Below, one piece after another: positions 2,811 to 22,958 of a stretch of 64,000 bases of DNA; position 1 is the first letter of the stretch; each line of letters starts with the position of its first letter. The DNA comes from Bacteroidetes Order II. bacterium (lineage in GTDB: Bacteria; Bacteroidota; Rhodothermia; Rhodothermales; UBA2364). Below the pieces are notes generated by a model. It worked only from the letters and a program-made list of their open reading frames with translations. It was not told the DNA's origin and made no database searches. The position numbers and the translations under genes were made by a program. Where the stretch lies: contig JAEUSQ010000032.1 in the NCBI GenBank assembly GCA_016788705.1, positions 62,001 to 126,000 of the forward strand. Reading direction: 5' to 3'.

Positions 2811-3454
2811 AAATAATAATAATCGATTATCAGTTAGGAAACTTATTTAGTGTACAACAAGCTTGTCTATATTTAGGTTTCGATGCGGAAATCTCATCAG
2901 ATGCCAATTGTATTGCAAAAGCAGATGCAATCATTCTTCCTGGAGTTGGTGCTTTTGCTGATGCAATGTATAATCTGCAAAAGTTCGACTTAATTGAACC
3001 CATTAAGGATTTTGTTTCAACTAATAAACCCTTTATGGGTATTTGCTTAGGGTTGCAATTACTCTTTGGTGAAAGTGAGGAATTTGGCATTCATAAAGGT
3101 ATAGGCTTGATAGAAGGTGTTGTGAAGAAGTTTCCAACTCAGGATACTCAGGGGGGGAAACTAAAAGTACCTCAAATTGCTTGGAATACAATTTTTCCTA
3201 ACCAAAAAAGTACGTGGGATAACTCGCCACTTTCAGTATGTGGTTTTGGTGATTATATGTATTTTGTGCATTCTTTTTATGTACAGCCTGCTGCTGATGA
3301 AGTAGTTTTATCTACTACAAATTATGGTGGACATACTTATTGTTCATCTATATTAAAAAATAATATTTTCGCTTGTCAATTTCATCCTGAAAAGAGTGGA
3401 TTAGACGGTATTAAAATATATAAGAATTGGTTAAATAATAATTCTTTAACATAA
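2807..3454 (+). CDS. hisH2: HisH-type glutamine amidotransferase subunit, glycan-associated
   Basis: A class I glutamine amidotransferase of 215 residues. The nucleophile is Cys80 in GICLGLQLLFG, and the His-Glu pair is His193/Glu195 in CQFHPEKSG; an LPGVGAF oxyanion-region motif lies near 44-50. It hydrolyses glutamine and channels ammonia to its HisF-like partner, with which it overlaps by four bases. In acetamidino-sugar systems it acts with a WbpG/PseA-type enzyme. The following DNA is decayed, so this pair seems cut off from the Pse genes by a rearrangement scar. Length and motifs are normal for the family. Confidence 0.9.
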   Translation: MKIIIIDYQLGNLFSVQQACLYLGFDAEISSDANCIAKADAIILPGVGAFADAMYNLQKFDLIEPIKDFVSTNKPFMGICLGLQLLFGESEEFGIHKGIGLIEGVVKKFPTQDTQGGKLKVPQIAWNTIFPNQKSTWDNSPLSVCGFGDYMYFVHSFYVQPAADEVVLSTTNYGGHTYCSSILKNNIFACQFHPEKSGLDGIKIYKNWLNNNSLT

Positions 3455-5205: not shown

Positions 5206-5209
5206 TTTT

Positions 5210-7999: not shown

Positions 8000-8712
8000 G
8001 TGCTATTATTCAGGCACGTATGGGATCGAGTCGCCTGCCAGCCAAAGTCTTAAAAACATTACCTTATGATAGTCATATAACTGTTTTAGATCGCATTATT
8101 CAGGTTCTTGAATCTATTCCAGAAATCAATAAGGTCATCATTGCAATTCCCAATACACCCCAAGATGACTCTTTAGCCCAAATATTAGCCGATAAAAAAG
8201 TTTTATACTATAGAGGTAGCGAACAAGATGTTTTGAGCCGCTTCTATGAAGCAAGCCATAGGCATAAACTTCAAACCATTTTGCGCTTTACAGCAGACAA
8301 TCCTTGTATTGATGCTACATTTATCCATCAAACCTTAGTCACACACTTGGCGGCAGGTGCCGATTACACAAACTCGCAAGGTTTACCTTTAGGAACAAAC
8401 TTAGAAGTTTTCTCTTTTACGGCTTTAGAGAAAGCATTTAAAGCTGCCGATACGCCCTATGAACGAGAACATGTAACGCCATATATTAAAAATATACAAA
8501 ATGGATTCATGCTCCACACCATCGCTTATAAAGGATTTGACCCAGAACTGAGGCTGACATTAGACACCGCGCAAGATTATACATTTCAATGCTGTTTATT
8601 TTTAGCCTTGAAGGAAGCAAATCTTCCCCTTACATTGCCCGCAATTCAAGAGGTGATACATCGCCACCCTTGGATGACTGAGATCAATCGTCATATTAAA
8701 CAAGCAAGTTGA
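7993..8712 (+). CDS. pseF: SpsF/PseF-type cytidylyltransferase
   Basis: Nucleotidyltransferase of the SpsF/COG1861 type, predicted to activate pseudaminic acid to CMP-Pse. The N terminus reads GAIIQARMGSSRLPAKVLK, the nucleotide-binding loop of the family; RFTADNP (at about 96-102) and YEREHVTPYI follow. I chose the ATG at 7993 because relatives begin only a few residues before this loop; an ATG at 7984 would add three residues. The start overlaps the end of the SDR gene. A second, NeuA/LegF-like CMP-sugar synthetase lies at 38127-38822, so the two nonulosonates probably have separate activating enzymes. Confidence 0.88.
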   Translation: MVGAIIQARMGSSRLPAKVLKTLPYDSHITVLDRIIQVLESIPEINKVIIAIPNTPQDDSLAQILADKKVLYYRGSEQDVLSRFYEASHRHKLQTILRFTADNPCIDATFIHQTLVTHLAAGADYTNSQGLPLGTNLEVFSFTALEKAFKAADTPYEREHVTPYIKNIQNGFMLHTIAYKGFDPELRLTLDTAQDYTFQCCLFLALKEANLPLTLPAIQEVIHRHPWMTEINRHIKQAS

Positions 8713-8716
8713 AGTT

Positions 8717-10120
8717 ATGCCTCGCGTTTTTTTTAGAGCAGATGGAAACGAAAAGATTGGCCTTGGCCACATTATGCGTTGCTTAGCACTTGCAGAAATG
8801 CTACAAACGCATTTTGAATGCGTATTTTTAATACAAGCACCATCTGTTTTACTAAAACAACAAATAGAAGCATCAGGAAGTTTTGTAATAAGTTTACCTC
8901 AGCAGGAGGTTGATGCAAACGAAGTAACGGAGGAGCTTTCAAAACATATCACAAGCCAAGATATGATTATCTTAGATGGATACACATTCCAAACAGCATA
9001 CCAAAAAGCGCTAAAAAACTTATCTATCAAAGTCGTTTGTATAGATGATATACCAAATGGACTTTACTATGCAGATGCTATTATCAATCATACAGGCGGT
9101 TTTTCTTCGACAGATTATAAGACAGCACAGCCAGCACATTTTTACCTAGGCCCTCAATACGCTTTATTACGCACTAACTTCTTGGCAGCGAAGCGATCTA
9201 TACCTCATATTTTTATTTGCTTTGGTGGAGCAGATCCAGAGAATTACACGATGCAGATGTTACAAACGTGTTTTACCCATCATGCCAGAAGTGTACTTGA
9301 AGTCGTCATTGGAAGTGCTAACCAGCATCAGCAACAACTTTCAGACTTACAACAAATACACTCAAACCTCCATATTCATTATAACTTATCGGCCCAGGAA
9401 ATGGTTGAACTCATGGCACGTTGCGATATAGGGATCACTTCTGCAAGTACAATTGCTTATGAATATTTATCTACTGGGGGTAGGCTCTTCGTTATTCAAA
9501 CAGCAAGTAACCAAAAACACCTATTCCAGTTTCTTGTTTCTGAAGGGCTTGCAGAAGAGGGTACAATATCGAATCTAAACAAGGCACTCAATCCATCCAA
9601 TAAAATTGCCACTTTATTTGATGGCCAACAAGCAAAGCGGCTCCGCCAAGTGTTTTTTGATTTGAGTATAAAAATTCAGCAGGCTAACCTTAATGACGCA
9701 CAAGCTTTATATAATTGGGCAAACGATCCTATTACAAGGTCTCAATCTTTTTCTACCGAGCCTATTGTATGGGACCAACATTTAACATGGTTCCAACGTA
9801 AATTAAACGATCCTCAAAGCGATCTATTAATCGCGTGGTTCGGAGAGGAAGCAATTGGGCAAGTTCGTTTTGATCACCGTACAGATTATACTTTAATTAG
9901 TTACGGGCTAGCCCCAAAATACAGAGGACATGGGCTTGGCTACAGTATTTTAAGGCTTGCTATAGACTGGCTCACAACGCGCCGTAATACAAAGAACTTA
10001 TGGGGCTATGTAAAACTTTCCAACCCGGCATCTATGCGTGCTTTTGAAAAATTAGCTTTTGAACGAAATCACACAACAGACTATCCAGAAACCTATTTAT
10101 ACACTTTAAACTTAAAATAA
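8717..10120 (+). CDS. pseG: Fused UDP-sugar hydrolase (PseG/SpsG) and GNAT N-acetyltransferase (PseH)
   Basis: Two enzymes in one 467-residue chain. Residues 1 to about 310 are a GT-B-like PseG domain (FRADGNEKIGLGHIMRCLALAE, with the PseG catalytic histidine equivalent at His18; CFGGADPEN near 173; GITSASTIAYEYL near 240). It removes UDP from the diacetamido sugar. Residues from about 314 to the end form a GNAT domain (IKIQQANLNDAQALYNW, then YGLAPKYRGHGLGYSIL as the acetyl-CoA loop, then NPASMRAFEKLAF) expected to acetylate the 4-amino group. The two activities are consecutive steps. It lies four bases after pseF and its stop overlaps the pseI start by one base. Confidence 0.93.
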   Translation: MPRVFFRADGNEKIGLGHIMRCLALAEMLQTHFECVFLIQAPSVLLKQQIEASGSFVISLPQQEVDANEVTEELSKHITSQDMIILDGYTFQTAYQKALKNLSIKVVCIDDIPNGLYYADAIINHTGGFSSTDYKTAQPAHFYLGPQYALLRTNFLAAKRSIPHIFICFGGADPENYTMQMLQTCFTHHARSVLEVVIGSANQHQQQLSDLQQIHSNLHIHYNLSAQEMVELMARCDIGITSASTIAYEYLSTGGRLFVIQTASNQKHLFQFLVSEGLAEEGTISNLNKALNPSNKIATLFDGQQAKRLRQVFFDLSIKIQQANLNDAQALYNWANDPITRSQSFSTEPIVWDQHLTWFQRKLNDPQSDLLIAWFGEEAIGQVRFDHRTDYTLISYGLAPKYRGHGLGYSILRLAIDWLTTRRNTKNLWGYVKLSNPASMRAFEKLAFERNHTTDYPETYLYTLNLK

Positions 10121-11163
10121 TGGCTTCTATTCGGCTTTCTACCTGTCAAATTGGGCAAGCACATAAACCCTTTGTGATTGCTGAAATGTCGGGCAATCAC
10201 AATCACTCCTTAGAACGCGCTTTAAGTATTGTAGATGCTGCGGCTGATGCAGGTGCACATGCCCTAAAACTTCAAACTTATACCGCAGATACCATGACAA
10301 TTAAGGGAGCTTACACCATTCAAGATCAAAATTCTTTGTGGCATGGAGCAGAGTTATACGATTTATATAAAAAAGCTTATACGCCCTGGGAATGGCATAA
10401 ACCCTTATTTGATCGGGCAAGAGTGCGGGGGATGATTCCGTTTAGCTCTCCTTTTGATGAAACTTCTGTGGACTTTTTAGAGTCATTAGAGGTCGAACTT
10501 TATAAAATTGCGTCTTTTGAAAATACAGATCATCCACTGCTAAAAAAGGTGGCACAGACTGGTAAACCTGTTATTATGTCCACAGGTGTTAGCACCATTG
10601 CAGATATTTTTGAATCTGTTCAAGTGCTAAAAAACAATGGATGCAAAGAATTAATTTTGCTTAAATGTACCAGTACTTACCCTTCCTCTCCTGAGAATAC
10701 CAACTTAAATACAATTCCCGTTTTACAACAAGTTTTCCAAGATTGTGTTATAGGGCTTTCTGACCATACAATGGGCGTTGGAGTTGCAGTTGCTTCTGTC
10801 GCCCTTGGCGCACGGGTTATTGAAAAACATTTCACCTTACGGCGTGCAGATGGGGGCGTAGATAGTGCCTTTTCTTTAGAGCCAGAAGAATTGGCAACCT
10901 TGGTTATAGAAAGTGAGCGTGCCTTCTTAGGCTTAGGAACGCCTCAATTTAATGTTCAAGACAAAGAAAAAAATAGCCTGTTATTTAAGCGTTCTATTTA
11001 TGTATCCAAGGACATTGAAATTGGGGAACCGTTTACAAGTGAAAACATTCGTGTTATCCGCCCTGGGAATGGTCTTCCTCCTAAGTTTTACGATCTCCTT
11101 TTAGGCAAACAAGCCAAACAAGCATATAAGGCAGGCACTCCTCTTACCTTTGATGCTATCTAA
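10120..11163 (+). CDS. pseI: Pseudaminic acid synthase
   Basis: A NeuB-family enzyme (347 residues) that condenses the 6-deoxy diacetamido-altrose product with phosphoenolpyruvate. The TIM-barrel domain shows FVIAEMSGNHNHS (about 18-30), ALKLQTYTADTM, YKIASFE, STGVSTIADI, GLSDHTMG and EKHFTLRRADGGVDSAFSLE; a C-terminal SAF antifreeze-like domain (about 288-345, KRSIYVSKDIEIGEPF to PGNGLPP) closes the active site. AEMSGNHN and the RADGGVDSAFS segment are of the PseI/SpsE type, whereas the second synthase in the window (14959-15990) reads AEAGVNHNGD and DRSMPGPDHAAS like NeuB/LegI. It is last in the coupled Pse set. Confidence 0.95.
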   Translation: MASIRLSTCQIGQAHKPFVIAEMSGNHNHSLERALSIVDAAADAGAHALKLQTYTADTMTIKGAYTIQDQNSLWHGAELYDLYKKAYTPWEWHKPLFDRARVRGMIPFSSPFDETSVDFLESLEVELYKIASFENTDHPLLKKVAQTGKPVIMSTGVSTIADIFESVQVLKNNGCKELILLKCTSTYPSSPENTNLNTIPVLQQVFQDCVIGLSDHTMGVGVAVASVALGARVIEKHFTLRRADGGVDSAFSLEPEELATLVIESERAFLGLGTPQFNVQDKEKNSLLFKRSIYVSKDIEIGEPFTSENIRVIRPGNGLPPKFYDLLLGKQAKQAYKAGTPLTFDAI

Positions 11164-11232: not shown

Positions 11233-12993
11233 ATGATTACAAAGCTGATTTTGGATTTTAGTTATGAATATGGGGCAGCCCAAACAGCACCTCATATTCA
11301 CATTTTAACTTCTTTATATGAAGGAGAAAGAGTTACAAATGTAAAAGCATTTAAGCCAAGTAAAAATCAAATAGACCACTATATTACAGAATGGTCTAAG
11401 CTCATTAAAACGACAAAAGAACATCCACTTCTTCAAGACACCCTTATTGCAGCAGAGCGCACTTTTTATGATGCAGTTATTTCTCCTTTTATTTGTTGGA
11501 TCAATGCCATTCATCATATTTTAGCTCAACATCCAAAGATTGATACCATTTCTTTTGCACAATACAATAATGCAAATCAAGTTTTTTTTATTGAGGCAGA
11601 GGGTGAGGCAAACGGCTCTTTTTTATATAAAAAATATTACTACCTACCCTACTACATTCATCAGTACCTACAAGCACAACTACCCAATATCCATATCCAT
11701 ATCGAAAAAAAAACATCTAAAACAAAGGCATCACTTAGTTTTTTCATGAGAGGCCTCATCTTTTTGGTAGCTAAGCTTATTCAGACTATTGCTTATAAGC
11801 TCATTATTCGAGAACGGAACAATTTACAAGAAGGTCATCAAAACCAAACAATTAAAAGTGCTATTCTAACTCGTGGAATTGTTCAATCGCAGTTTATACA
11901 AGAAGCTCTAAAAGCGTATGCTCCAAGCCTACTTATTTTAGTTTCTGAACAATCTTTCAGGCCTTTTGTGAATTACAATTTATTTAAAAAAAGTAAAGAT
12001 ATTAATTCTTTTTACATAGAATCGGCATTGCCTATCCGCCAACTTTTGATCTTATTAAAAAATGTTTTCTACAAAAAAAAGCTTACACGACAAAAATACA
12101 ATTTAGATTCACTACATATTGAAGGTATTAGCTTCAAGCTTAAAGACTTCATTTCCGAACTACTGGTAAAGGAGTTTGATATTCAAGTTTATCAAGAAAG
12201 TTTGGCAGCTGCTCAGCAAAAACTTAGCCGAGACTTAGGGCTGTCCTTTAGCAAAGTCATCACTATGGAAATGATGACTTCTATTCCATTTTATGTAAAG
12301 AAAGTATATATGGATAAAAAAGTTGTGCAACTACAAACAACTTTAATGGAACCAACTTATAGCCCTCGTTTTATTTTTGCAGACCAGTTTGTATTTACAG
12401 ATCGCAATACGTATGAAGGTTTTTGCAAAGTAAACCCTCAAATGGAATCTTTATTTTCTTGTATTTCATGGTTTAAATATTTAGGAATAAACAAGAAACA
12501 TCTAAAGAGTAGTGTTCATAAAGTTGTTTTCTTTGGGCAACCATATGAAACAGAAAATGAACTAAAAATCACCGCGTACCTTAAAGAGCTATCCCACAAA
12601 TTAGCTTTTAAGCTATATATTAAACCTCACCCTCGTCAACGGGGTAATCCATGGAATGTACCTGAAAACAGGCTCATACCTAATGAAGTAACGATTGATC
12701 AGATATTAGCTGATACAGATCTTGCCATTACAAGGATTTCATCTGTAGGAACTGATTTTTGGGCGTATGGAGTACCTTGCCTTTTTGTTAAGCTAAGTGA
12801 CTTTGACCGTGCTGCAAAATTATTTTATACACCAGATGATTATGAAGGTATCCTAACAGATATAGCAAACATTCGGGATAAAATAGAAGGTATTGTAGAT
12901 TTGCAAAAATCTTTTATACAGCATCCTTTATACAAGTTTTTTGAAGTAGATGAGTCCGCTATTTCAGGCTTGATTTTAGATATTTATACCTAG
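11233..12993 (+). CDS. Putative GT-B-like glycosyltransferase, KPHPR family (copy A; candidate Pse transferase)
   Basis: I do not recognise a named family for this 586-residue protein. No signal peptide is seen; a hydrophobic patch lies near 173-190. The C-terminal third resembles the nucleotide-binding half of GT-B enzymes such as capsule/CDP-glycerol-type transferases: a strand and turn reading FFGQPYETEN, then LYIKPHPR (His466) and ITRISS (Arg501-Ser504), followed by YGVPCLF. The protein at 18467-20287 matches it along its length: both start with an FSYE segment, both have an AEGE segment mid-protein, and both have KPHPR and RISS at equal spacing. Each copy directly follows a nonulosonate module. 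I infer that this one transfers pseudaminic acid from CMP-Pse. It is AT-rich compared with flanking genes. Confidence 0.6.
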   Translation: MITKLILDFSYEYGAAQTAPHIHILTSLYEGERVTNVKAFKPSKNQIDHYITEWSKLIKTTKEHPLLQDTLIAAERTFYDAVISPFICWINAIHHILAQHPKIDTISFAQYNNANQVFFIEAEGEANGSFLYKKYYYLPYYIHQYLQAQLPNIHIHIEKKTSKTKASLSFFMRGLIFLVAKLIQTIAYKLIIRERNNLQEGHQNQTIKSAILTRGIVQSQFIQEALKAYAPSLLILVSEQSFRPFVNYNLFKKSKDINSFYIESALPIRQLLILLKNVFYKKKLTRQKYNLDSLHIEGISFKLKDFISELLVKEFDIQVYQESLAAAQQKLSRDLGLSFSKVITMEMMTSIPFYVKKVYMDKKVVQLQTTLMEPTYSPRFIFADQFVFTDRNTYEGFCKVNPQMESLFSCISWFKYLGINKKHLKSSVHKVVFFGQPYETENELKITAYLKELSHKLAFKLYIKPHPRQRGNPWNVPENRLIPNEVTIDQILADTDLAITRISSVGTDFWAYGVPCLFVKLSDFDRAAKLFYTPDDYEGILTDIANIRDKIEGIVDLQKSFIQHPLYKFFEVDESAISGLILDIYT

Positions 12994-13762
12994 GTCTTTT
13001 GGTCACATAAATAGTCGTTATTTTTTGAACAGGAAATGTATATACAGAAAATTAGAGATCATGAAAGCCCTCAGCAACCGTAGAGAGCTGGCGAATGGGT
13101 ATTAAGGAAGGGAGTTCAGGTTTTTAAGAACAAGGCTGGTCAAAGTCATAAACTGTTGAAAAAATGAATTTAACATCCTGCCTCAAGAAGCGCAAACGTT
13201 TTTTAAAGCATCAATATAGATTCAAGATAAGATAAATGGATCTGCTCTATGGTGATAAGTGACGGGTGTCAAGTCAAGTTGTTTTTTTTTTAGGGAGCGT
13301 CTTTAAAGACGAAACGGTAAAAATTTCAACACAAAGAAAATTATAAATCTGCAAGGCGATCTATATATAGAGGATTCTTCTCCTGCAACAACCAATTATT
13401 TTTCGATACAAGGTAAGGCGTCATTACAAATAATTCTGTTTTGCAATAATTAAATATTTTCTCCTTCAGAATTGATCAACCAACTATTCTTTTGCATTGA
13501 CAATGCTTGGGTAGATGTGGCCCTTAAAATTCAATAACGTTTGAGTATTGGGCAAGAAAGAAGATAGTTAATCTCTTACCTCCTCCATATTCGTCTTGCC
13601 TCAATAATTATTAAATCGCTCTGGAAGAAACCTAAAGTAAGATAGTTTACACTTTATAATTAGCCAGCCGTTAATTGCTGATTGGTTAGCATTGGCGGCT
13701 GTAAGTTCCGAGTTAACCATAAATGTTTCTCCTAACAAGTTTTCAACTTTTCAAAGACTTTT
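12994..13762. other. Long intergenic region without an intact gene
   Basis: All frames are broken by stops. Two stretches look protein-like but decayed: about 13105-13160 (a VLRKGVQVFKNKAGQSHKLLKK reading) and about 13585-13650 (a HIRLASIIIKSLWKKPKV reading, reminiscent of a transposase end). Neither could be assigned. A promoter for the lhgO-neuBC genes must lie within or near this gap, but no convincing box was found. Confidence 0.5.
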
Positions 13763-14962
13763 ATGCAATACGATGTCGTCGTTGTTGGAGGTGGAATTGT
13801 AGGTTTAGCGACCGGCTGGGCCCTTATTCAAACCAACCCCGCCTTAAAGTTGGTCATATTAGAGAAGGAAGCAACACTTGCTCAGCATCAAACAGGCCGA
13901 AACAGTGGTGTAATCCATAGCGGAATTTACTATAAGCCCGGTAGCTTTAAAGCAAAGTTTGCCCGTGCAGGCCGTGAAAGTATGGTCGCATTTGCCAGAG
14001 AATATGGCATTGCACATGATATTTGTGGCAAACTCATCGTGGCAAGCCATGATTCCGAGCGAGAAGGTTTGAATAAGCTTTATGAGCGTGGACTTGAGAA
14101 CCAGATTCGAGTGACGCGCGTGAGCAAAGCAGAGATGAAAGACATTGAGCCGCACTTGCGCGGCGAAGAAGGGGTTCAAGTGCTGGATGCAGGCATTATT
14201 GATTACAAACAAGTCGTCCAACAGCTCAAAACGTTGCTCTTGGCATCAGGGGTGGAAATCCGTTTGGGTATAGAGGCAAAGGAGGTCGTTTCTCATAAAG
14301 ATGGCATTGAGGTTCAGACCAACCAGGCGCTGGTGCGAGGACGATATTTTATCAATTGTGGTGGCTTATGGAGCGACCGCATCGCCAAGAAATCCAAAGC
14401 AACTGTAGAGGTCAAGATTGTTCCATTTCGGGGGGAGTATTTTGAGCTAAAGCCAGAAAAAAACCACTTGGTCAAAAACTTGATTTATCCGGTCCCCAAT
14501 CCCAATTTTCCGTTTTTGGGCGTACACCTCACCCGCATGGTTCATGGCGGTATTCATGCAGGGCCCAATGCGGTACTTGCTTTTAAGCGAGATGGGTATT
14601 CTAAATTAGACTTTAGTTTGCGGGATACTTTAGACACCCTAACCTTTCCCGGCTTTTGGATTTTAGCTGGAAAATATTTGGGAGATGGGGTGCAAGAAAT
14701 GCTTCGCTCATTCAGTAAAAAACGTTTTACAGCCTCCTTGCAAGCCCTCGTTCCCGAAATTCAAATGGAAGATTTAACCCCCTCCCCTGCCGGCATTCGA
14801 GCGCAAGCCATGCTTAGAAATGGACAGTTGGTGGATGACTTTATGATCCATGTAGAAGATCGCGCCATGCACGTTTGTAATGCACCTTCCCCTGCAGCCA
14901 CAGCCTCGCTAGAAATTGGTCGTTACCTAAGCCAAGAACTTATTAAAAGATTTGATTTATGA
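13763..14962 (+). CDS. lhgO: L-2-hydroxyglutarate oxidase/dehydrogenase family FAD protein
   Basis: An FAD-dependent oxidoreductase (399 residues) with a GGGIVG dinucleotide motif at 9-14, TGRNSGVIHSGIYY at about 48-61 (a hallmark of LhgO), VPFRGEYFEL and VPNPNFPFLGVHLTRMVHGGIHAGPNAVLAF in the substrate domain. LhgO oxidises L-2-hydroxyglutarate to 2-oxoglutarate and feeds electrons to quinone. It overlaps neuB by four bases (ATGA), so it is translated together with nonulosonate synthase genes, although no step of that pathway is known to need it. It could oxidise a sugar-derived hydroxy acid or simply be a hitch-hiker. Family firm, local role unknown. Confidence 0.9.
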   Translation: MQYDVVVVGGGIVGLATGWALIQTNPALKLVILEKEATLAQHQTGRNSGVIHSGIYYKPGSFKAKFARAGRESMVAFAREYGIAHDICGKLIVASHDSEREGLNKLYERGLENQIRVTRVSKAEMKDIEPHLRGEEGVQVLDAGIIDYKQVVQQLKTLLLASGVEIRLGIEAKEVVSHKDGIEVQTNQALVRGRYFINCGGLWSDRIAKKSKATVEVKIVPFRGEYFELKPEKNHLVKNLIYPVPNPNFPFLGVHLTRMVHGGIHAGPNAVLAFKRDGYSKLDFSLRDTLDTLTFPGFWILAGKYLGDGVQEMLRSFSKKRFTASLQALVPEIQMEDLTPSPAGIRAQAMLRNGQLVDDFMIHVEDRAMHVCNAPSPAATASLEIGRYLSQELIKRFDL

Positions 14963-15990
14963 ATAAAACTCAAGTGCTAATCATTGCAGAGGCTGGCGTA
15001 AACCACAATGGAGATTTAGCCCTTGCAAAGAAGTTGATAGAAGTTGCCGCTGCTGCGGGGGCAGACTATGTAAAGTTTCAAACTTTTTTAGCCAAAAACT
15101 TAGTCAGTGCTCATGCTAAAAAAGCGAAATATCAAATTGAAAACTTGGGTGCGGCTTCGGAAGATGACACCCAATATTCGATGCTTAAGCAATATGAATT
15201 AAGCCCTTCAGACCATGCAACATTGATTGCACATTGTAAGGCTTGTGGCATTCGCTTCCTTTCTACCGCCTTCGACCTAGAGAGCTTAGACTTATTGCGC
15301 CAGATTGACCTTGACTTATATAAAATTCCATCAGGTGAAATCACCAATTTGCCCTATCTAAAAGAACTTGGTCGTTTAGGTAAACCGATTGTTTTGTCAA
15401 CGGGTATGGCAACTTTGGAGGACATCGAAGCTGCGATTCAGGTTTTACAGGCAGCAGGAGCAGACCGAGAAACCATTACAGTCCTGCACTGCAATACCGA
15501 ATATCCAACGCCTATGGAGGATGTAAACTTGCGGGCGATGCAGACCATTCAAACACGCTTGGGCGTGGCAATTGGGTACTCCGATCATACTTTAGGGATC
15601 GAAGTACCCGTGGCAGCCGTTGCTTTGGGGGCCGTTTGTATCGAAAAGCATTTTACCTTAGATCGGTCTATGCCAGGCCCAGACCATGCCGCCTCTTTAG
15701 AACCAGAAGAGCTTAAAGCAATGGTTAAAGCCATTCGCAACATTGAAAAAGCGTTAGGACATGGGCTAAAAACGCCTTCTCCTTCTGAAATAAAAAATAT
15801 GGCGATTGCCCGAAAAAGCATCCATTTAGCCCATGACCTCGCTCAAGGAACCTTGCTAAGTGAAGCAGATTTGGTGATGAAGCGCCCCGGTGATGGTCTC
15901 TCGCCGATGGAACTGCCTAACGTTTTAGGCAAACGCCTCAAGTATGCTTTAGCGGCTGACCATAAACTTGATTTAAAGGATTTGGCATAA
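14959..15990 (+). CDS. neuB: N-acetylneuraminate/legionaminate synthase
   Basis: Condenses a 2-epimerised hexosamine (ManNAc or 2,4-diacetamido-2,4,6-trideoxymannose) with phosphoenolpyruvate. The 343-residue protein has AEAGVNHNGD (10-19), VKFQTF, YKIPSGEITN, STGMATLEDIE, GYSDHTLGIEVPVAA and EKHFTLDRSMPGPDHAASLE, then a C-terminal SAF domain with KSIHLAHDLAQGT and MKRPGDGLSP. It is followed without a gap by the hydrolysing 2-epimerase. The DRSMPGPDHAAS motif is of the NeuB/LegI type rather than PseI. The choice between Neu5Ac and legionaminic acid is open; a LegF-like synthetase, a CBS-nucleotidyltransferase and an amidotransferase nearby favour a legionaminic-type sugar. Confidence 0.93.
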   Translation: MNKTQVLIIAEAGVNHNGDLALAKKLIEVAAAAGADYVKFQTFLAKNLVSAHAKKAKYQIENLGAASEDDTQYSMLKQYELSPSDHATLIAHCKACGIRFLSTAFDLESLDLLRQIDLDLYKIPSGEITNLPYLKELGRLGKPIVLSTGMATLEDIEAAIQVLQAAGADRETITVLHCNTEYPTPMEDVNLRAMQTIQTRLGVAIGYSDHTLGIEVPVAAVALGAVCIEKHFTLDRSMPGPDHAASLEPEELKAMVKAIRNIEKALGHGLKTPSPSEIKNMAIARKSIHLAHDLAQGTLLSEADLVMKRPGDGLSPMELPNVLGKRLKYALAADHKLDLKDLA

Positions 15991-17154
15991 ATGGCTCGTA
16001 AAATTTGCGTTGTGACGGGTAGCCGTGCCGAATATGGTCTGCTCTTTGGGCTTTTGAAAGAAATCCAAGAAGACCCTGACCTCTGCTTGCAATTGGTCGT
16101 CACAGGCATGCACCTCTCGCCAGAATTTGGACTAACCTATAAAACTATTCTACAAGATGGCTTTGAAATCCATGAAAGGGTCGAAATCCTACTTTCGAGC
16201 GATAGCGCCCAAGGCGTTTCAAAAAGTGTTGGTTTGGGGCTAATTGGGTTTGCAGATGCCTTTGAGCGCCTTAAGCCTGATCTTCTGGTTTTACTCGGCG
16301 ACCGCTTTGAAGTGTTTGCTGCCGCCCAAGCAGCCATGCTTGCCCGCATCCCTATCGCCCATCTACACGGCGGCGAAACCACAGAAGGAAACTTCGATGA
16401 AGCCATACGCCATAGTATTACCAAAATGGCCCACTTGCACTTTACTTCAGCCGAAGTCTATCGAAACCGCGTTATTCAATTGGGAGAAGCGCCAAACCGC
16501 GTTTGGAATGTAGGAGCCTTGGCAGTGGACAACCTCAAGCAAGTTCCGCTTTGGTCACGCAATCAATTGATCGAAAACCTGAATATTACCTGGGGCAACC
16601 CCATGCTTTTAGTGACTTACCATCCTGTAACCAACTCAGAAGAGTCCCCAGAAAGCCAGCTTAAAGCCTTATTTGAAGCTATAGATGCCTTCCCTAACGC
16701 AAAAGCGGTGATTACAAAAGCAAATGCGGATACGGCTGGGCGGGTTATTAACCAATTGATCGAAACCTATGTTGCCACACAACCGCATCGTATTTTTGCT
16801 TTTACTTCATTGGGACAGGTTCGATATTTGAGTATGTTACAAGAATGTGATTTAGTCTTAGGGAACTCTTCAAGCGGCATCATTGAAGCGCCTCTATTTG
16901 GTAAGCCTACTATTAACATTGGTCTAAGACAAGCTGGTCGCCTTAGAACTTCATCTATTTTGGACTGCGAAGCCTCCAAAGAAGCCATTATAGATGCCAT
17001 TAAAACAGGGCTTAGCTCCCGCTTTAAAGCACAAGCAAAGGAAACTGCTTCGCCTTATGGACAAGTAGGAGTCGCAAAAAGAATCAAGGCCGTTGTCAAA
17101 AGTATGCCTTTAGAGGGCATTTTATTTAAAACTTTTTACGATCTTTCTCAATAG
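15991..17154 (+). CDS. neuC: Hydrolysing UDP-N-acetylhexosamine 2-epimerase
   Basis: A GT-B-fold enzyme of 387 residues that hydrolyses UDP and inverts C2, giving free ManNAc or its 4-acetamido-6-deoxy analogue for the synthase upstream. Family features are VTGSRAEYGLL (8-18), VTGMHLSPEFG, LGDRFEVFAAA, HLHGGETTEGNFDEAIRH, VTYHPVT, KANADTAGR and GNSSSGIIEAP. These mark the NeuC/LegG group, distinct from the non-hydrolysing WecB-type epimerase at 27145-28230. It begins on the base after the neuB stop. An 84-base gap with a short AAACGA/TCGTTT hairpin (17196-17212) separates it from the amidotransferase. Confidence 0.94.
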   Translation: MARKICVVTGSRAEYGLLFGLLKEIQEDPDLCLQLVVTGMHLSPEFGLTYKTILQDGFEIHERVEILLSSDSAQGVSKSVGLGLIGFADAFERLKPDLLVLLGDRFEVFAAAQAAMLARIPIAHLHGGETTEGNFDEAIRHSITKMAHLHFTSAEVYRNRVIQLGEAPNRVWNVGALAVDNLKQVPLWSRNQLIENLNITWGNPMLLVTYHPVTNSEESPESQLKALFEAIDAFPNAKAVITKANADTAGRVINQLIETYVATQPHRIFAFTSLGQVRYLSMLQECDLVLGNSSSGIIEAPLFGKPTINIGLRQAGRLRTSSILDCEASKEAIIDAIKTGLSSRFKAQAKETASPYGQVGVAKRIKAVVKSMPLEGILFKTFYDLSQ

Positions 17155-17238
17155 CGAGCTTATACCCCACCGTATAACCTCCCTTAATCCAATTTAAACG
17201 ACTAAATCGTTTTAACCCTTTCAATTTTAGCTCTTGCG

Positions 17239-18474
17239 ATGAATACAGCACAGCCATTAGAAGCATATTATGGGCTTCCAACAGAAGTAAAGTTTTGCAA
17301 GCAATGTGTTATTTCTAACCAACGCCCCGCTTCCGCCATAGAGTTTAAACATAACATCAACTCAAAAAAAGTTACCATGGCTTTGGATGAGGAAGGCGTT
17401 TGTGACGCATGCAGGCAAGCTGAAATTAAAAACCGAATAGATTGGCAAGTACGCGAAGAGCAACTTTTACAGCTTTTAGATAAACATCGAAGCAAAGATG
17501 GCTCTTATGATTGTATTGTACCGGGCAGTGGCGGCAAAGACAGCGCTTACCAAGCCCATGTATTGAAATACAAATATGGAATGAACCCGTTAACGGTGAC
17601 CTGGCCTCCCATTCTTTATACCGAATATGGATATGAGAATTGGAAAAACTGGATTGATATAGGCGGTTTCGACAATCTATCCTTCCGCAGAAACGGACGG
17701 GTTATGAAACTCTTAACCAAACTGTCCATCGAAAACTTACTACATCCTTTCCAAACCTTCATTTTAGGCCAAAAAAACTTTGGGCCCAAAATTGCCGCCA
17801 AAATGGGCATTCCGCTTGTTTTTTATGGCGAAAATGAAGCCGAGTATGGCAATCCCATTGCTGATAATACCTCTTCACTTCGGGATAAATCCTATCATAC
17901 CTTCCAAAACATAGATGAACTCTATTTAGGTGGAGTTTCCATTCGTGAGCTACGTGAGAAATATGAAGTAAGCCTAAATGACTTAATGGCCTTTTTGCCG
18001 CCAACGGCCGAAGAACTAAGTAAAACCAATGTTCAGGTGCATTATTTGGGCTACTACCTTAAGTGGACTCCCCAAGAAGTCTATTATTATGCTGTTGAAA
18101 ATACAGGATTTAAAGCCCGCCCCTTCCGCACGCAAGGGACTTATAGCAAATACAATAGCATTGACGACCAAATAGACGATCTCCACTATTACACCACCTA
18201 TATCAAGTTTGGCATTGGACGTGCAACCTATGATGCCTCCCAAGAAATCCGTAATCGCCATCTAACCCGAGAAGAAGGTGTTGCCCTTGTCGAACGCTTT
18301 GATGGCGAGTTTCCAGACCGGTACTTCAATGGTATCATGGATTACATCGGCATGAACCCTGAACACTTTATGGTCCTCTGTGATAAATTCCGTTCACCGC
18401 ACCTTTGGGGTAAAAATGAGAAAGGCGAATGGAAACTACGCCATACAGTAGGAGGTAAAGGATTAAATGACTAA
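17239..18474 (+). CDS. N-acetyl sugar amidotransferase (WbpG/PseA/LegA type)
   Basis: An ATP-dependent amidotransferase (411 residues) that turns an N-acetyl group into an acetamidino group, using ammonia supplied by a HisH/HisF-like pair. Two Cys pairs, CKQC (20-23) and CDAC (55-58), form a probable zinc site. The PP-loop is PGSGGKDSAY at 95-104, followed by VTWPP and a NEAEYGNP acidic segment. This is the third part of the WbpG-HisH2-HisF2 system; the other two genes lie at 1950-3454. Placement right after neuB-neuC suggests a 5- or 7-acetamidino legionaminic-type sugar. In Pseudomonas O5 the same trio acts on a diacetamido-mannuronic acid, so the substrate is not settled. Confidence 0.9.
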   Translation: MNTAQPLEAYYGLPTEVKFCKQCVISNQRPASAIEFKHNINSKKVTMALDEEGVCDACRQAEIKNRIDWQVREEQLLQLLDKHRSKDGSYDCIVPGSGGKDSAYQAHVLKYKYGMNPLTVTWPPILYTEYGYENWKNWIDIGGFDNLSFRRNGRVMKLLTKLSIENLLHPFQTFILGQKNFGPKIAAKMGIPLVFYGENEAEYGNPIADNTSSLRDKSYHTFQNIDELYLGGVSIRELREKYEVSLNDLMAFLPPTAEELSKTNVQVHYLGYYLKWTPQEVYYYAVENTGFKARPFRTQGTYSKYNSIDDQIDDLHYYTTYIKFGIGRATYDASQEIRNRHLTREEGVALVERFDGEFPDRYFNGIMDYIGMNPEHFMVLCDKFRSPHLWGKNEKGEWKLRHTVGGKGLND

Positions 18475-20287
18475 GCGATTATTTGTTGCGTTTAGTTATG
18501 AAGATGCGCTCGCATTGGCAAACGACAAACAGGAGCATGACCATGTTTTGCTTTTTGCCATAGACCCCAAACATAACATTGCAGATTTGCCTTATCAAAA
18601 TGCAATCGTTGTGGGGGATTATGTTTCTACTGTAAGCGATAATATGGAATTTTATGCTCAACTCCATGCCGCTTATCGGGATCAGATTGAACAAATCAAA
18701 ACAAAGCACCCCATTATTTGGGAATATGCGAATACAATCTTAGTTAACTTGGTCTATCGTATAGGGCTGATTATTTATAAGCTTCAGGCGCAGCTCGATC
18801 AATTTAATTATCAAGAGGTTATTATCTATGGGCAAGAATACCATAAACACTTTCCTGTATTTGGCGCAGAAGGAGAGGTCGTCTCTCGGTTTCAGTACTT
18901 CCCGATGCTCCTTTATACCTCATACCTTATAGCCTTATGTAAGCAACACCCTGCACCCTATCGTTTAGCTAACTCGCAGGCACTTTCTTTCCTAACTCCT
19001 CTAAAGCTCGCTTTTCGAGACCTTACGATTGACACAGGAAAACTCTTGTACCTTCTGCGACAGCGCTTCCAAGCACGCAAAGGCTCTTTTTTATTTAGCG
19101 AAAAAATGCCTTTAGTAAAAGAAGACTATGACCTCATTTTGCTACTAAGAAATGAAATAGGCGCATCTTTCTTTGCGTCATTTGTACACTGGGCAGGTAC
19201 TCATAAAAAGAAAAAGATTCTACTGATTTGCGACGAAATGCTACAACGAATAGGTTGCTTAACAATGGTTAAAAAGCTATATCCAAAGCTTCCATATATC
19301 AACTTGCTCAAGCATCAGAGTATGGCAACCCTTATAAAGGAATGGTTTAAAAATAGGTTTCGCAGCGCTACAGCACAGGCACAAGAGACCCTCCAACTAG
19401 CAACCCCCAACGTTCAGTTTTCCATTCCCATCAAGCCCATTGAAATCCACCTAATGCGCTCGATGATAGACAAACAGTTACGAAAAACGGTACTTGACAA
19501 GGTGCTAAAAGCATTGCCCAAAAAACAAGCTTCCGTTCTTTCTGGTGAAATGGTCAGTGTAGATGCAACCTTAGAGGCAAATCTTTGTCAAAAGCATGGC
19601 TTTAAGTACTGGAATGCAGAAGTGGCAAGTTGCGATCCTTTAGAGGCTATTCGGGAAGCACCGGGCGAAGGATTTTTAGCTTCTTCCCATCATGAAGCCA
19701 ATATTATTGCGCACCACCACCCCGACGAAGCGCATAAAATATACCATATCGGGCTTTTTAGATTTCCAGAATTTAGCTTAGAAGTGTCAAACACCAGCGC
19801 TAACTTAAAAACAGTTACCTTTTTCACCCAACCGCCACCTCTTCCTAACCATGAAAACATAGTCTTGTTAGAGGTTCTAAATGAGCTTGCATACCAACTC
19901 GGGTTTAAGGTTGTCGTCAAACCGCACCCTAGGGATACTACATCCTATGAAAGATTTGCAACAAGCCCCAATGTCGTGTTACAACCGAGAATTGGCGTTT
20001 TAAGCACAGATTTAATTAAAGCCTCGGATTTGGTAGTTGCGAGAATTTCTTCCACCCTTCAAGAGTCGCTCTTCTTGGGGGTTCCTTATATTGCCTTCAA
20101 TACTGATCAGCGAGCAAATTTAGAGTGGGATTTTTTGCATCCAGATTTAGGCGTAACAAGCCATCATATTACCGACTTTACCTCCAAAATTAACAATTAT
20201 ACTCAATATCAAAGATCGTTTTATTCAAATAGAAAAAAATTCCTTCAACATAACTTAGAATCCACTTTCAAATGGGTCTTCGACTAA
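18467..20287 (+). CDS. Putative GT-B-like glycosyltransferase, KPHPR family (copy B; candidate Leg/Neu transferase)
   Basis: This 606-residue protein is related along its length to the one at 11233-12993. Shared landmarks are an FSYE N-terminal segment, KTKHP near residue 85, AEGE near 137, FFTQPP, FKVVVKPHPR (His487) and VARISS (Arg526), then LGVPYIAFN. It overlaps the amidotransferase gene by eight bases, so it is coupled to the second nonulosonate module, and the flippase follows. I infer that it adds the CMP-activated Leg/Neu-type sugar. No named family is certain; capsule transferases with an HP motif are the nearest resemblance I can name. No signal peptide is seen. Confidence 0.6.
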   Translation: MTKRLFVAFSYEDALALANDKQEHDHVLLFAIDPKHNIADLPYQNAIVVGDYVSTVSDNMEFYAQLHAAYRDQIEQIKTKHPIIWEYANTILVNLVYRIGLIIYKLQAQLDQFNYQEVIIYGQEYHKHFPVFGAEGEVVSRFQYFPMLLYTSYLIALCKQHPAPYRLANSQALSFLTPLKLAFRDLTIDTGKLLYLLRQRFQARKGSFLFSEKMPLVKEDYDLILLLRNEIGASFFASFVHWAGTHKKKKILLICDEMLQRIGCLTMVKKLYPKLPYINLLKHQSMATLIKEWFKNRFRSATAQAQETLQLATPNVQFSIPIKPIEIHLMRSMIDKQLRKTVLDKVLKALPKKQASVLSGEMVSVDATLEANLCQKHGFKYWNAEVASCDPLEAIREAPGEGFLASSHHEANIIAHHHPDEAHKIYHIGLFRFPEFSLEVSNTSANLKTVTFFTQPPPLPNHENIVLLEVLNELAYQLGFKVVVKPHPRDTTSYERFATSPNVVLQPRIGVLSTDLIKASDLVVARISSTLQESLFLGVPYIAFNTDQRANLEWDFLHPDLGVTSHHITDFTSKINNYTQYQRSFYSNRKKFLQHNLESTFKWVFD

Positions 20288-20333: not shown

Positions 20334-21674
20334 ATGATAAAAAAACATCTCGTAAATATTTTAAACGCCCAAAACTGGCTTAATCATGTAAGGCGCTACC
20401 TGTTAGGGAAGGTTTCTGCCAGACTTATTCTTTGGGTATTCGTATTATTTTTAGGCTATCAATTACAAGATAAAACAACATATTCTCACTTCTTAACCTT
20501 TATGCTGGCAAGCCAACTTATTTCTGGTGTAATTAATGCAGGAATGCCAGCTGCAATCCTACGATTCGGTGTAATTAATCAAAAAGAAGAGCCTGACCAA
20601 GTTTCAGCACAAGGGGTTTGGGGCATTAGTTTAACCATAGGGGTTATTGCCAGTGCCTGTTTATTTCTTATATACCTTTTCATTGGCGCAACTACTTTAC
20701 GGTTTCCCTTGGAAATGGGTGCTATTACTTGCTTATTTAGCTTCCTCTTAGCCCAAGAAGCAAATTGCATGAGTATTTTTCAGCTAAAGAGTAGAAGTGA
20801 CTTGTATGAAAAATATTACATATTATTATCTATCTTTGTTTTACTTATTATTATCTTGCTTTATTTCTGGGGGTGGGATAATAGAGTTTTTCAAGCAACT
20901 TTATTTTATGTTATTGCAGTACTGATCACGCTTATTTGGGCTACTTACTATGCCTACAAGCTTGTTGGCTTACCAAATATAAGAAAATGGAAAGAGCCAT
21001 TGGCATATGCCTTACCCTTGTTGCCGCACTTACTAGGAATGTACTTTTTAACCTCTGCTGATTTCTTTTTGATTAAATACTTACTTGGTGAACAAACATC
21101 TAGTATATATGGTTTTGCTTACCAAGCAACTTCTGTGATTTCAATGTTTACTATGGCAGTGGTCACCTACCTAACCCCCGTTATTTATGAATCTTTGCAA
21201 AATAGGGATGTGGTTTCCTTACAGAGTATCTCGAAAAAAATCAGTATGATCTCTGGTATTGTTTTGATGATTTCTTTTATTGGAATCTTTGCATTCTATA
21301 TGATTGTTTATTACTTTTTAAATCAGTATATAGACAGTATTCCATTAGTTTGTATTCTTGCTCCTTCTTTTGTTTTTCATTTTATATATGCAGTTGCAGG
21401 GATTCCTGCAATGTTCTACGGTAAAACAGGCTTATTTAGCCTTGTTTCCTTGATCGTAGCAGGATGTAATATGCTTGGAAATTACATTACTATTCCTATA
21501 TGGGGAGTTTATGGCGCAGCCTGTATCAATGTGGCATCTTATGCCCTACTTTCAATGGGTCATGTTTATTTGATGAGAAAAACTTCCGACCTCAAAATTT
21601 CATTTAAACACCCTTACACCTTAGCCGCTGTTTCTGTGAGCATTGGCTTAATACTTGGCTTCATAGTTAAATAA
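20334..21674 (+). CDS. Wzx-like polysaccharide repeat-unit flippase (first cluster)
   Basis: A polytopic membrane protein of 446 residues with about 12 hydrophobic helices spread over the whole length, as in MATE/MOP-superfamily O-antigen flippases. There is a cluster of basic residues at the N terminus and the mid-protein region reads YALPLLPHLLGMYFLTSADFFLIKYLLG, typical for the start of the second half. It would move undecaprenyl-linked repeat units across the inner membrane. Nine bases separate it from the polymerase gene, and both are AT-rich, as usual for Wzx/Wzy pairs. A second flippase lies at 43349-44860. Confidence 0.85.
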   Translation: MIKKHLVNILNAQNWLNHVRRYLLGKVSARLILWVFVLFLGYQLQDKTTYSHFLTFMLASQLISGVINAGMPAAILRFGVINQKEEPDQVSAQGVWGISLTIGVIASACLFLIYLFIGATTLRFPLEMGAITCLFSFLLAQEANCMSIFQLKSRSDLYEKYYILLSIFVLLIIILLYFWGWDNRVFQATLFYVIAVLITLIWATYYAYKLVGLPNIRKWKEPLAYALPLLPHLLGMYFLTSADFFLIKYLLGEQTSSIYGFAYQATSVISMFTMAVVTYLTPVIYESLQNRDVVSLQSISKKISMISGIVLMISFIGIFAFYMIVYYFLNQYIDSIPLVCILAPSFVFHFIYAVAGIPAMFYGKTGLFSLVSLIVAGCNMLGNYITIPIWGVYGAACINVASYALLSMGHVYLMRKTSDLKISFKHPYTLAAVSVSIGLILGFIVK

Positions 21675-21683
21675 AATAACTTC

Positions 21684-22958
21684 ATGAAACGTCTTAATGT
21701 TTACCTTTGGCTCATCTTAGTTTTTGACCCTTTTATCTCGATCCTAAGACAGGCAAACATATACAATACAGCGGTTCTCGTTATTATCTATGGCATTGTT
21801 GCTTTTTTTATGGTAGCACCAGAAGCAGTACGTACCTATTATGGTAAAAATGATGTATTTTTAAAAACTCTAGCTTTTGGTTTAATTCTTGGCTCCATTG
21901 TAGGCATTAAAAATGGTTCCGAACAAGATTTTTTACGCAATTACTTGGCAGATTCGTTTAATATTCTAAAGGCAATTATGTTGTATTCCTTTGGAATGAA
22001 TTTTTCTACACCACTTACAATTACTAAAAGTTTTAAAAGAATTATTTTCTTTTCAACTATTTCTTGCACACTAGCAACTATCGTCCTAATTATTGGCGTA
22101 AATACTGGCCAAATTGGATATTTATCAGGCCCTGGGTACACCCTACTACTCCCATTATCATATTATGCAAACTTAAATAATGCTACAATGGCTTTTGTTT
22201 TGGTGCTCATTTTCTTTTCAACAAAACGTGGCGCCATTTTGATGGCATTAGGAGTTTCTTTATTAAGCTTGTTTTTAGGAAGAAAATATTTTAAAAAAGA
22301 AATAACAAAAAATAGTTTATATCGTAATATTTTAATTGGATTGTTTGCTGTTATTCTTGTGATAGCACTCGCACTTAATCCTAGAGGAAATGTTTGGATC
22401 AACAAACAACTCAATAATGTCATCACTATTTTTGATTATAAAGTTCTGGGTTTTTTAGAAGTAGATATCTCAAACCAGAGACAATTAGACCGTCTAGGTT
22501 CAGGACGCATTACGGAAGCAGAAAGCGCGATGAATGCAATGAAACCCATAGATTGGATTATTGGTGGAGGTCATGGTTTTAGTTATTATATCGAAGACTA
22601 TGCAGATTCAGAAGGGATTCATAATGTACACTTTACTCCTTTGTCTTTGACTACCCGTTACGGGGTTTTTGTCACAGCTCTAATTTATTTGAATATTATA
22701 AGTTTGATCATTCGGGGTATTTACTGGACGTGGAAAGTTCAGAACTTCAACCATTTTAAAGTACCGCTGCTCTATGTAACAGGAGCCTTTATCTACTCGT
22801 TTACGGCATATTCTATTATGAACGACTTGTTATTTATGTTTATGGCAGGGCACTTAAGCAGTATGTTAATCAATCTTAAAAAAGCACGATTGCAAAATCA
22901 GCAAGTATCAAAAAAGTTGTATAATACCCAAAGCACCTCTTCTTTTGTCCATGTATGA
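21684..22958 (+). CDS. Wzy-like O-antigen/capsule polymerase (first cluster)
   Basis: A polytopic membrane protein (424 residues, about ten predicted helices) with the topology of Wzy polymerases. There is a long periplasmic loop at about 245-310 (RLGSGRITEAESAMNAM, then IIGGGHGFSYYIED and HNVHFTPLSLTTRYG), containing the Arg/Gly/His-rich pattern common to this class. It would join repeat units at the periplasmic face. It follows the flippase by nine bases. Sequence conservation in Wzy proteins is too low for a more exact call; a ligase role is less likely given the flippase neighbour. Confidence 0.75.
   Translation: MKRLNVYLWLILVFDPFISILRQANIYNTAVLVIIYGIVAFFMVAPEAVRTYYGKNDVFLKTLAFGLILGSIVGIKNGSEQDFLRNYLADSFNILKAIMLYSFGMNFSTPLTITKSFKRIIFFSTISCTLATIVLIIGVNTGQIGYLSGPGYTLLLPLSYYANLNNATMAFVLVLIFFSTKRGAILMALGVSLLSLFLGRKYFKKEITKNSLYRNILIGLFAVILVIALALNPRGNVWINKQLNNVITIFDYKVLGFLEVDISNQRQLDRLGSGRITEAESAMNAMKPIDWIIGGGHGFSYYIEDYADSEGIHNVHFTPLSLTTRYGVFVTALIYLNIISLIIRGIYWTWKVQNFNHFKVPLLYVTGAFIYSFTAYSIMNDLLFMFMAGHLSSMLINLKKARLQNQQVSKKLYNTQSTSSFVHV

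Follow-up and report, generated by a model that had tools for sequence, protein, structure and literature searches.

Two candidate nonulosonate glycosyltransferases with a common C-terminal lobe in one surface-polysaccharide locus of a Rhodothermales bacterium

A stretch of 64,000 nucleotides from Bacteroidetes Order II. bacterium (Rhodothermales; contig JAEUSQ010000032.1, positions 62,001 to 126,000), referred to here as the window, carries a surface-polysaccharide locus with two genes for proteins of 586 (A) and 606 (B) residues, each placed behind one nonulosonate module. A and B are probably two GT-B glycosyltransferases that use nine-carbon sugars activated with cytidine monophosphate (CMP), A for pseudaminic acid (Pse) and B for the product of NeuB and NeuC. 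This is the best reading of the sequences, and it rests on the homology of the C-terminal lobes (C-lobes), on their cytidine-type K-x-H-P and S-S motifs, on the position of the genes behind two pathways and on relatives that lie beside Pse or neuraminic/legionaminic acid (Neu/Leg) genes. An initial annotation of the window had come to the same kind of enzyme, with CMP-Pse as the donor of A and CMP-Leg/Neu as that of B, an assignment that we infer from gene position; its coordinates and lengths for both genes were right (Table 1).

As that annotation had also stated, A directly follows a Pse pathway (PseB, PseC, PseG, PseI), and B follows a NeuB/NeuC/amidotransferase module, with pathway genes named by NCBIfam equivalog or subfamily models above cut-off. 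A gap of 69 bases separates pseI from the start of gene A, and gene B overlaps the 3′ end of the amidotransferase (wbuX) gene by 8 bases. Because the pathway genes of B pass N-acetylneuraminate-type models, and none of the window proteins scanned was over the cut-off of a LegB or LegC model, a Neu-type sugar may be at least as likely as a Leg-type one for this module. The G+C content was 33.2% for gene A, 40.7% for gene B, 40.8% for pseI, 35.3% for wzx, 33.7% for wzy and 41.9% for the window, and the low value of gene A fits an exchangeable, serotype-type gene.

Homology between A and B was demonstrable in their last approximately 160 residues (BLASTP E 1e-8, 31% identity over 149 residues). 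Smith-Waterman alignment gave a Z of 15.7, a score reached by 0 of 1000 shuffles, and hhalign of the C-parts gave a P of 7e-9. In contrast, residues 1–420 of A and 1–435 of B aligned with a Z of about 0 (score reached by 514 of 1000 shuffles). For residues 1–200, the local alignment score was reached by 462 of 1000 shuffles, while an end-free global alignment left a weak signal (17 of 500 shuffles); hhalign of the N-parts gave a P of 0.07 across the first 25 residues, and seven 4-mers were common to both N-parts, where shuffled sequences average 2.8 and attain seven in 60 of 2000 cases. All the motifs reported previously (FSYE, AEGE, FFxQP, KPHPR and RISS) were present, but their equal spacing was not confirmed, since KPHPR and RISS lie 37 residues apart in A and 41 in B, and FFxQP and KPHPR 31 and 33 residues apart, respectively. 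Likewise, FSYE and AEGE do occur in both N-parts, as had been noted, but residues 1–420 showed no detectable homology; FSYE at the same position in both proteins is suggestive of kinship between the N-parts, not proof of it, and AEGE is likewise a hint. The idea of a full-length, two-member family did not hold, given that demonstrable homology was limited to the C-lobe and that no further full-length member was found in the genomes searched.

Full-length relatives were sought in several sets of genomes, among them two congeneric species. BLAST searches with A and with B against 296 genomes of the phylum each, the own genome included, returned a full-length match in the own genome only, and profile A1 found no further full-length member in 394 genomes (393 other phylum-sample genomes). 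None was present in 90 near relatives (which overlap in part with the preceding sets), in the 7 genomes that gave loci in the scan described below, or in two further sets of 246 and 200 genomes, drawn from the phyla to which two of these loci belong, the 246-genome search saying little, as it gave no match at E 1e-4 even in genome G397, whose partial match has an E of 0.004 elsewhere. No relatives of A or B were found among plasmids, phages and viral contigs, and in the open-licence PMC literature no paper was found on these proteins or naming TIGR04396 or TIGR04326, two families considered below.

With regard to the donor site, the closest guide is the polysialyltransferase MhPST, in which K289 of the K-x-H-P motif forms a hydrogen bond to cytosine within what the authors describe as a specificity filter for CMP donors, and the phosphate is held by H291 and S339/T340 (PMC5517516). 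A (K/R)xHP motif is described as conserved across sialyltransferase and retaining 3-deoxy-D-manno-oct-2-ulosonic acid (Kdo) transferase families (PMC12887879). A and B carry the K, the H and the Ser pair at the places equivalent to those of MhPST, with R in place of its K293, and by analogy KPHPR and RISS have putative roles in cytidine reading and phosphate holding. K or R preceded x-H-P in all 24 C-lobes examined, i.e., A, B, those of the 8 scan loci, 9 BFO_1060/TIGR04396 proteins, 3 proteins of the 600-residue type and 2 from loci L091 and L096; a pattern containing [KR]PHP had played a part in the choice of the 8 scan loci, but not in that of the other 14 relatives. Epimerases acting on uridine diphosphate (UDP) sugars had HP in the region scanned in four of five cases, all four with P or T at the K/R position. 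Among the 57 open frames of 150 residues or more in the window, K/R-x-H-P followed by a Ser/Thr pair was found in two, A and B.

The KPHP-like/S-S lobe alone was considered as a mark of nonulosonate transferases and rejected, since the partial hits of profile A1 include other families: WecB epimerases (loci L006 and L010) 48% identical to the WecB of the window, a Balneola protein above the PF04464 cut-off and, in the phylum of the Campylobacterales scan locus, PseG-like proteins and a GT2 fusion. A genome of this last phylum also holds an 845-residue open frame (L082:1169-3703) that reads like a fusion of GT2 and TagF-like parts and shows a weak likeness to the C-lobe of A (30% over 87 residues).

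Family models did not claim either protein. PF07388 (GT38 polysialyltransferase) gave 22.2 bits for B and 16.7 for A, below its gathering cut-off of 23.3, and PF07922 (GT52) gave 15.8 bits for B against a cut-off of 26.1, with A not listed. At E up to 10, a range in which the HMMER filters drop most matches above about E 0.1, neither A nor B was listed for PF05159 (Capsule_synth, KpsS/KpsC type), for PF04464, for TIGR04326 or for any Maf-type flagellin transferase family of Pfam or NCBIfam. We take PF05159 to cover GT99, GT107 and GT118. Searches of the PDB by sequence gave nothing for A or B singly and, with profiles, weak matches to epimerases, a TagF-like protein and TarL; PHROGs gave nothing useful for either. 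A strong match of both proteins to a family of known, unrelated function was thus not found in the Pfam, NCBIfam and PDB searches. Since neither protein reaches a family cut-off and full-length relatives were not found, A and B have the look of a rare, new branch among the CMP-ulosonate GT-B enzymes.

AlphaFold2 models were poor overall, with a mean predicted local distance difference test score (pLDDT) of 48 and 49 for the two proteins, and better in the C-lobes (about 70–88 for B 450–530 and A 430–500). The predicted order of the C-lobe was an FFxQP strand, a helix, a strand ending at the K of KPHPR, and a strand that runs into RISS, where a helix begins; with low confidence, AEGE was modelled between a predicted strand and a helix in both proteins. 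Residues ~215–440 of B look Rossmann-like by eye and could be a candidate GT-B N-lobe. In Foldseek, the top PDB match of B was 5wc6, a polysialyltransferase of GT38 (E 9.6e-5), with UDP-sugar epimerases next, while the top rows of A, none at or below 1e-3, included KpsC, polysialyltransferase with cytidine diphosphate (CDP), TarL, TagF and WbbB. In VIA-align, B was led by the UDP-GlcNAc 2-epimerase 4nes (Z 11.1, root-mean-square deviation (rmsd) 2.5, 101 residues aligned), followed by WbbB 8csd (Z 9.9, 3.2, 91), KrkA 9yfz (Z 9.9, 3.0, 97), polysialyltransferase 5wcn (Z 9.8, 4.0, 111) and KpsC 6mgd (Z 9.8, 4.1, 106). A was led by the universal stress protein 3tnj (Z 9.3, rmsd 2.9, 95 aligned), with which KpsC 6mgd was tied (Z 9.0, 3.6, 92), ahead of WbbB 5fa1 (Z 8.9, 3.1, 90) and polysialyltransferase 5wc6 (Z 8.2, 3.5, 103). 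Overall, the KpsC, WbbB and KrkA entries matched the C-lobes with Z 7.8 to 9.9 (rmsd ~3 to 4, ~90 to 110 aligned), and UDP-epimerases and stress proteins scored equal or higher.

The neighbourhoods of relatives were examined by scanning a collection of 84,980 species with a C-lobe alignment (A5) of B, A and one Balneola protein (locus L054), whose NeuC/NeuA neighbourhood had already been seen. This matched 273 stretches, of which 8 were confirmed: one locus each from Rhodospirillales, Campylobacterales, Lachnospiraceae and Magnetospirillum, two from Balneola and two from Pontibacter, the Balneola loci being found by construction (one is the L054 contig itself, the other a close relative). A PseI/NeuB-type synthase, called by tblastn at E under 1e-20 in flanks of up to 10 kb, some ending at contig ends, was present in 6 of the 8 loci and in 4 of 6 once the two seeded Balneola loci were left out. 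The corresponding figures were 0 of 20 for GT4 loci used as a control (the top-scoring relative of the window GT4 gene in each of 20 genomes, out of 39 other phylum-sample genomes matched) and 2 of 13 for a weak GT-B control (the partial profile hits left after removal of two Balneola places); some control stretches also end at contig ends (11.6–19 kb). One-sided Fisher tests gave p = 7e-5 against GT4 and 0.011 against the weak hits for all 8 loci, and 0.001 and 0.046 for the 6 unseeded ones, p-values that are rough, as the test loci come from several phyla and the controls from one. Homologues were therefore not situated mostly away from nonulosonate genes. In addition, the Rhodospirillales locus, which ends at a contig end, holds PseB, a PseC-like aminotransferase and a cytidylyltransferase without a synthase; the Magnetospirillum locus holds two WbuX-like genes and HisH/HisF, also without a synthase; and in the two Pontibacter loci 3 bases separate the pseI stop codon from the start of the relative, its first Met being taken.

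L091 and L096, the weak hits that do have a synthase nearby, are proteins of 354–358 residues with KLHP and TRFSST, close to the TRISS/ARISS of A and B, and their profile matched the GT-B part of A/B with a P of 8.6e-6. These proteins have no Pfam match above cut-off and lie in a compact cluster (L091:4872-10416 and L096:8850-14630) with a NeuB-like short synthase (297–311 residues), a short-chain dehydrogenase/reductase and a cytidylyltransferase; a similar gene set is present in L056 and L058. Such a cluster is possibly an unusual ulosonic acid pathway.

A lobe that can be aligned with that of A/B occurs in named families of surface-polysaccharide proteins. TIGR04396 (surf_polysacc) had matches in 53 of 247 phylum genomes at E 0.001, and a synthase was present in 11 of the 17 stretches fetched and in 8 of the 9 strongest by rank (L044-L052), the loci of family f22 being close relatives and not independent. 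NF046086 (BFO_1060) scored 475 bits on the one protein scanned, which lies beside pseB in L047. Across L044-L053, the TIGR04396/NF046086 proteins adjoin Pse clusters and carry no more specific name than surface carbohydrate or glycosyltransferase protein. They align with A/B by hhalign (seven proteins, P 4e-5 over 44 columns) and differ in size, the models having 427 and 365 positions; the C-lobe of B scored 34.3 bits with TIGR04396 (cut-off 125) and 25 bits with NF046086 (cut-off 200), and A was without a match to either. By their C-lobe signature, TIGR04396 and BFO_1060 proteins look like likely Pse/Leg transferases. TIGR04326 (O_ant_LIC13510), with a model of 602 positions, has a KPHP lobe that can be aligned with that of A/B (hhalign P 8.8e-5; Smith-Waterman Z 8.6 and 6.5 against A, 2.2 and 2.9 against B) and N-parts that cannot (P 0.74). 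N-part homology with TIGR04326 or with a 606-residue protein of L043 was rejected, none being found by profile comparison; the gene of the latter is followed by a cytidylyltransferase gene (L043:8221-10819). Of two TIGR04326 member loci from one genome, L081 has a cytidylyltransferase gene near, with one gene between (L081:396-3888), and in L080 the next gene encodes a CDP-glucose 4,6-dehydratase and not a nonulosonate enzyme. This family may use cytidine-linked donors.

We propose that the C-lobe would bind CMP, with the Lys reading cytosine and with the His and the Ser pair holding the phosphate and stabilising the leaving group, as in the solved enzymes. A would transfer Pse from CMP-Pse supplied by the immediately preceding genes, and B the sugar made by NeuC and NeuB, probably after acetamidino modification by WbuX/HisF/HisH. 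Each would add its own sugar to a lipid-linked repeat unit, which would then be flipped by Wzx and polymerised by Wzy, and the N-terminal ~440 residues, different beyond recognition between A and B, would set donor stereochemistry and acceptor.

Several observations weigh against this proposal. The poor models leave the N-parts of A and B unseen, and the modelled fold of the C-lobe is generic, GT-B-like and no more, so that it does not favour one nucleotide over another. The D/E-D/E-G base motif known from GT38, GT52 and GT80 is missing, with no [DE][DE]G in A or B; AEGE as the catalytic base is a guess, at best a variant of that motif. Counted by lineage, the unseeded scan loci gave a synthase in 3 of 5, a small sample for which p is 0.004 in the comparison with GT4 but 0.10 in that with the weak hits. 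Bacillus subtilis SpsB, which lies beside Leg genes and has HP motifs, was not needed for Leg transfer (PMC7439481), so gene position can mislead. Finally, the proposal does not account for an alignment of residues 34–229 of B (window 18566-19153). This segment aligned pairwise with PseF-like cytidylyltransferases (L048:2970-3752 and L049:15423-16205) with a score of 92 and Smith-Waterman Z 8 to 11.5, these being ranks 1 and 2 among 867 proteins, with five of the first six ranks belonging to one PseF-like clade and HPAPY and TIDT of B standing opposite HVTPF and TVDT. A cytidylyltransferase-like N-domain in B was not upheld, as profiles of 13, 5 and 8 proteins put B among shuffled sequences (E 12, 1.9 and 2.3), the cytidylyltransferases of the window itself gave Z 0.0 and 0.2, and nothing comparable was present in A.

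Among the alternatives, it is unlikely that A and B are CMP-sugar GT-B transferases in which donor and position do not correspond one to one, so that one of them would transfer Kdo or the other nonulosonate. The Kdo transferases KpsC, WbbB and KrkA do fit the C-lobes about as well as polysialyltransferase, and the window contains two cytidylyltransferases, the second about 18 kb after B; against this, each gene is tied to its own pathway by the short gap and the overlap described above, and no window protein scanned was named as a Kdo enzyme by an over-cut-off model. Somewhat more improbable is another cytidine donor, either a CDP-polyol, as for TagF/TarL, or a CDP-sugar, or else a UDP-sugar. 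TarL and TagF are among the fold matches of A, a ten-row C-lobe profile has its best PDB sequence matches, both weak, in a TagF-like capsule polymerase and in TarL (E 0.0024 and 0.012), UDP-epimerases match the C-lobe fold, and the KPHP-lobe protein of L080 precedes a CDP-glucose 4,6-dehydratase gene. Nevertheless, PF04464 was not among the matches of A or B listed at E up to 10, the cytosine-reading Lys of both proteins is absent from the four UDP-epimerases with HP, and the relatives adjoin nonulosonate genes. That A and B are modifying, priming or inactive GT-B-like proteins in what are merely surface-polysaccharide islands is very improbable, despite the SpsB precedent and the missing base motif, considering the GT4 control and the intact K, H and Ser pair.

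With A and B taken as transferases of the two locus sugars, a further and more tentative possibility is that they found a new glycosyltransferase family, in which a common CMP-binding C-lobe is joined to two unrelated-looking N-parts of ~440 residues, one for Pse and the other for neuraminic/legionaminic acid, in one locus for a polymer with two nonulosonates. If this were so, the 354–358-residue TRFSST proteins and BFO_1060/TIGR04396 would likewise be nonulosonate transferases that have gone unrecognised and are built on this lobe. Many bacterial surface loci encode nonulosonate pathways, but the transferases that attach the products have been identified for few of them; with two candidates in a single locus, one for each sugar, donor specificity can be tested directly.

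Table 1. Coordinates in the window of genes A and B, their motifs and the genes of the nonulosonate modules.
Feature	Position	Strand	Remarks
Protein A, candidate CMP-Pse transferase	11233..12993	+	586 residues, behind pseI
Protein B, candidate transferase for NeuB/NeuC-derived nonulosonate	18467..20287	+	606 residues
FSYE, A	11257..11268	+	residues 9-12
FSYE, B	18491..18502	+	residues 9-12
AEGE, A	11596..11607	+	residues 122-125; speculative catalytic-base loop
AEGE, B	18866..18877	+	residues 134-137; speculative catalytic-base loop
FFGQP, A	12529..12543	+	residues 433-437; first C-lobe strand
FFTQP, B	19820..19834	+	residues 452-456; first C-lobe strand
KPHPR, A	12622..12636	+	residues 464-468; putative cytosine/phosphate site
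KPHPR, B	19919..19933	+	residues 485-489; putative cytosine/phosphate site
RISS, A	12733..12744	+	residues 501-504; putative CMP phosphate-binding Ser pair, predicted helix start
RISS, B	20042..20053	+	residues 526-529; predicted helix start
HisF-like + HisH-like pair, WbuX partners	1950..3454	+	WbuZ 258.5 bits, below cut-off 299.7; HisH 193, cut-off 105.4
pseB	4183..5205	+	TIGR03589 526.6 bits, cut-off 407.75
pseC	5210..6364	+	TIGR03588 473.5 bits, cut-off 423.5
CMP-sugar cytidylyltransferase, pseF position	7984..8712	+	PF02348 100.6 bits
pseG fused to GNAT acetyltransferase (pseH-like)	8717..10120	+	TIGR03590 209.8 bits, cut-off 153.55; PF13302
pseI	10120..11163	+	TIGR03586 472.4 bits, cut-off 340.25
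neuB	14959..15990	+	TIGR03569 (NeuB_NnaB) 478.7 bits, cut-off 399.65
neuC	15991..17154	+	TIGR03568 (NeuC_NnaA) 478.3 bits, cut-off 235.9
wbuX-type N-acetyl sugar amidotransferase	17239..18474	+	TIGR03573 (WbuX) 360 bits, cut-off 203.2
Wzx flippase + Wzy-like polymerase, directly after B	20334..22958	+	PF01943 42.7 bits; PF04932 31.0, just below cut-off 31.7
NeuD-type acetyltransferase	30734		–
Second cytidylyltransferase (neuA/pseF type), module B candidate	38127..38822	+	TIGR03584 119.8 bits, below cut-off 205.7

Within the locus, the Pse pathway extends from 4183 to 11163, and the cytidylyltransferase in pseF position had no NCBIfam model at E 1e-20. The remaining glycosyltransferases scanned in the window were of GT4, GT2 and bacterial-sugar-transferase types. 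Between the Pse module and the NeuB/NeuC module lie 769 A+T-rich bases (12994-13762) in which no gene was convincing. An L-2-hydroxyglutarate oxidase equivalog (13763-14962; 543 bits, cut-off 299) lies between A and neuB, with a 4-base overlap with the latter, and has no obvious role among nonulosonate genes. A heparinase II/III-type protein (24996-27080) is also encoded inside the polysaccharide locus.

The known systems that come closest fall into three groups. The Kdo transferases of GT99, GT107 and GT140 and the Pse transferase KpsS1 (GT118) resemble A and B in the CMP-ulosonate donor that we infer for the latter and, for GT99, GT107 and GT140, in the fold of the C-lobe; A and B differ in having no PF05159 match, and KpsS1 is placed here by description. 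(K/R)xHP is stated for GT99 and GT107, KrkA (GT140) is given Ser instead of the basic residue, and Acinetobacter baumannii KpsS1 is cited as a Pse transferase outside Maf (PMC12887879). MhPST (5wc6) of GT38, together with GT52 and GT80, shares with A and B the K-x-H-P motif, the Ser/Thr pair and a GT-B C-lobe, and MhPST also a basic residue after HP, whereas A and B lack D/E-D/E-G, stay below the Pfam cut-offs and are ~200 residues longer than the 381-residue MhPST chain.

The third group is the pair GtfS and TFUB4_00887 of Tannerella forsythia, here compared by published description. With these enzymes and KpsS1 known, the earlier view that Pse/Leg transferases outside Maf and the sialyltransferase families are poorly known is partly outdated. 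GtfS (Tanf_01245) transfers a Pse derivative and TFUB4_00887 a Leg derivative; knock-out of a transferase led to loss of its sugar (the Pse derivative for gtfS), and there was no cross-complementation (PMC6388019). The gtfS gene is the next locus tag after pseI, and its product is described as homologous to GT-B enzymes (PMC6120980). The C-terminal domain is common to the two proteins, with 241 identical residues, and the sequence ahead of it differs (PMC6388019). The pair has the HP motif of A and B, GtfS is also of the GT-B type, and gtfS has the position after pseI in common with gene A. The known pair has 442–445 residues, in contrast to 586–606 for A and B, and also carries D/E-D/E-G; furthermore, its members are 81% identical and are found as alternatives in different strains, while A and B have only the C-lobe in common and lie in one locus. 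By this analogy, A and B would represent a much more divergent form of the T. forsythia Pse/Leg pair, brought together in a single locus.

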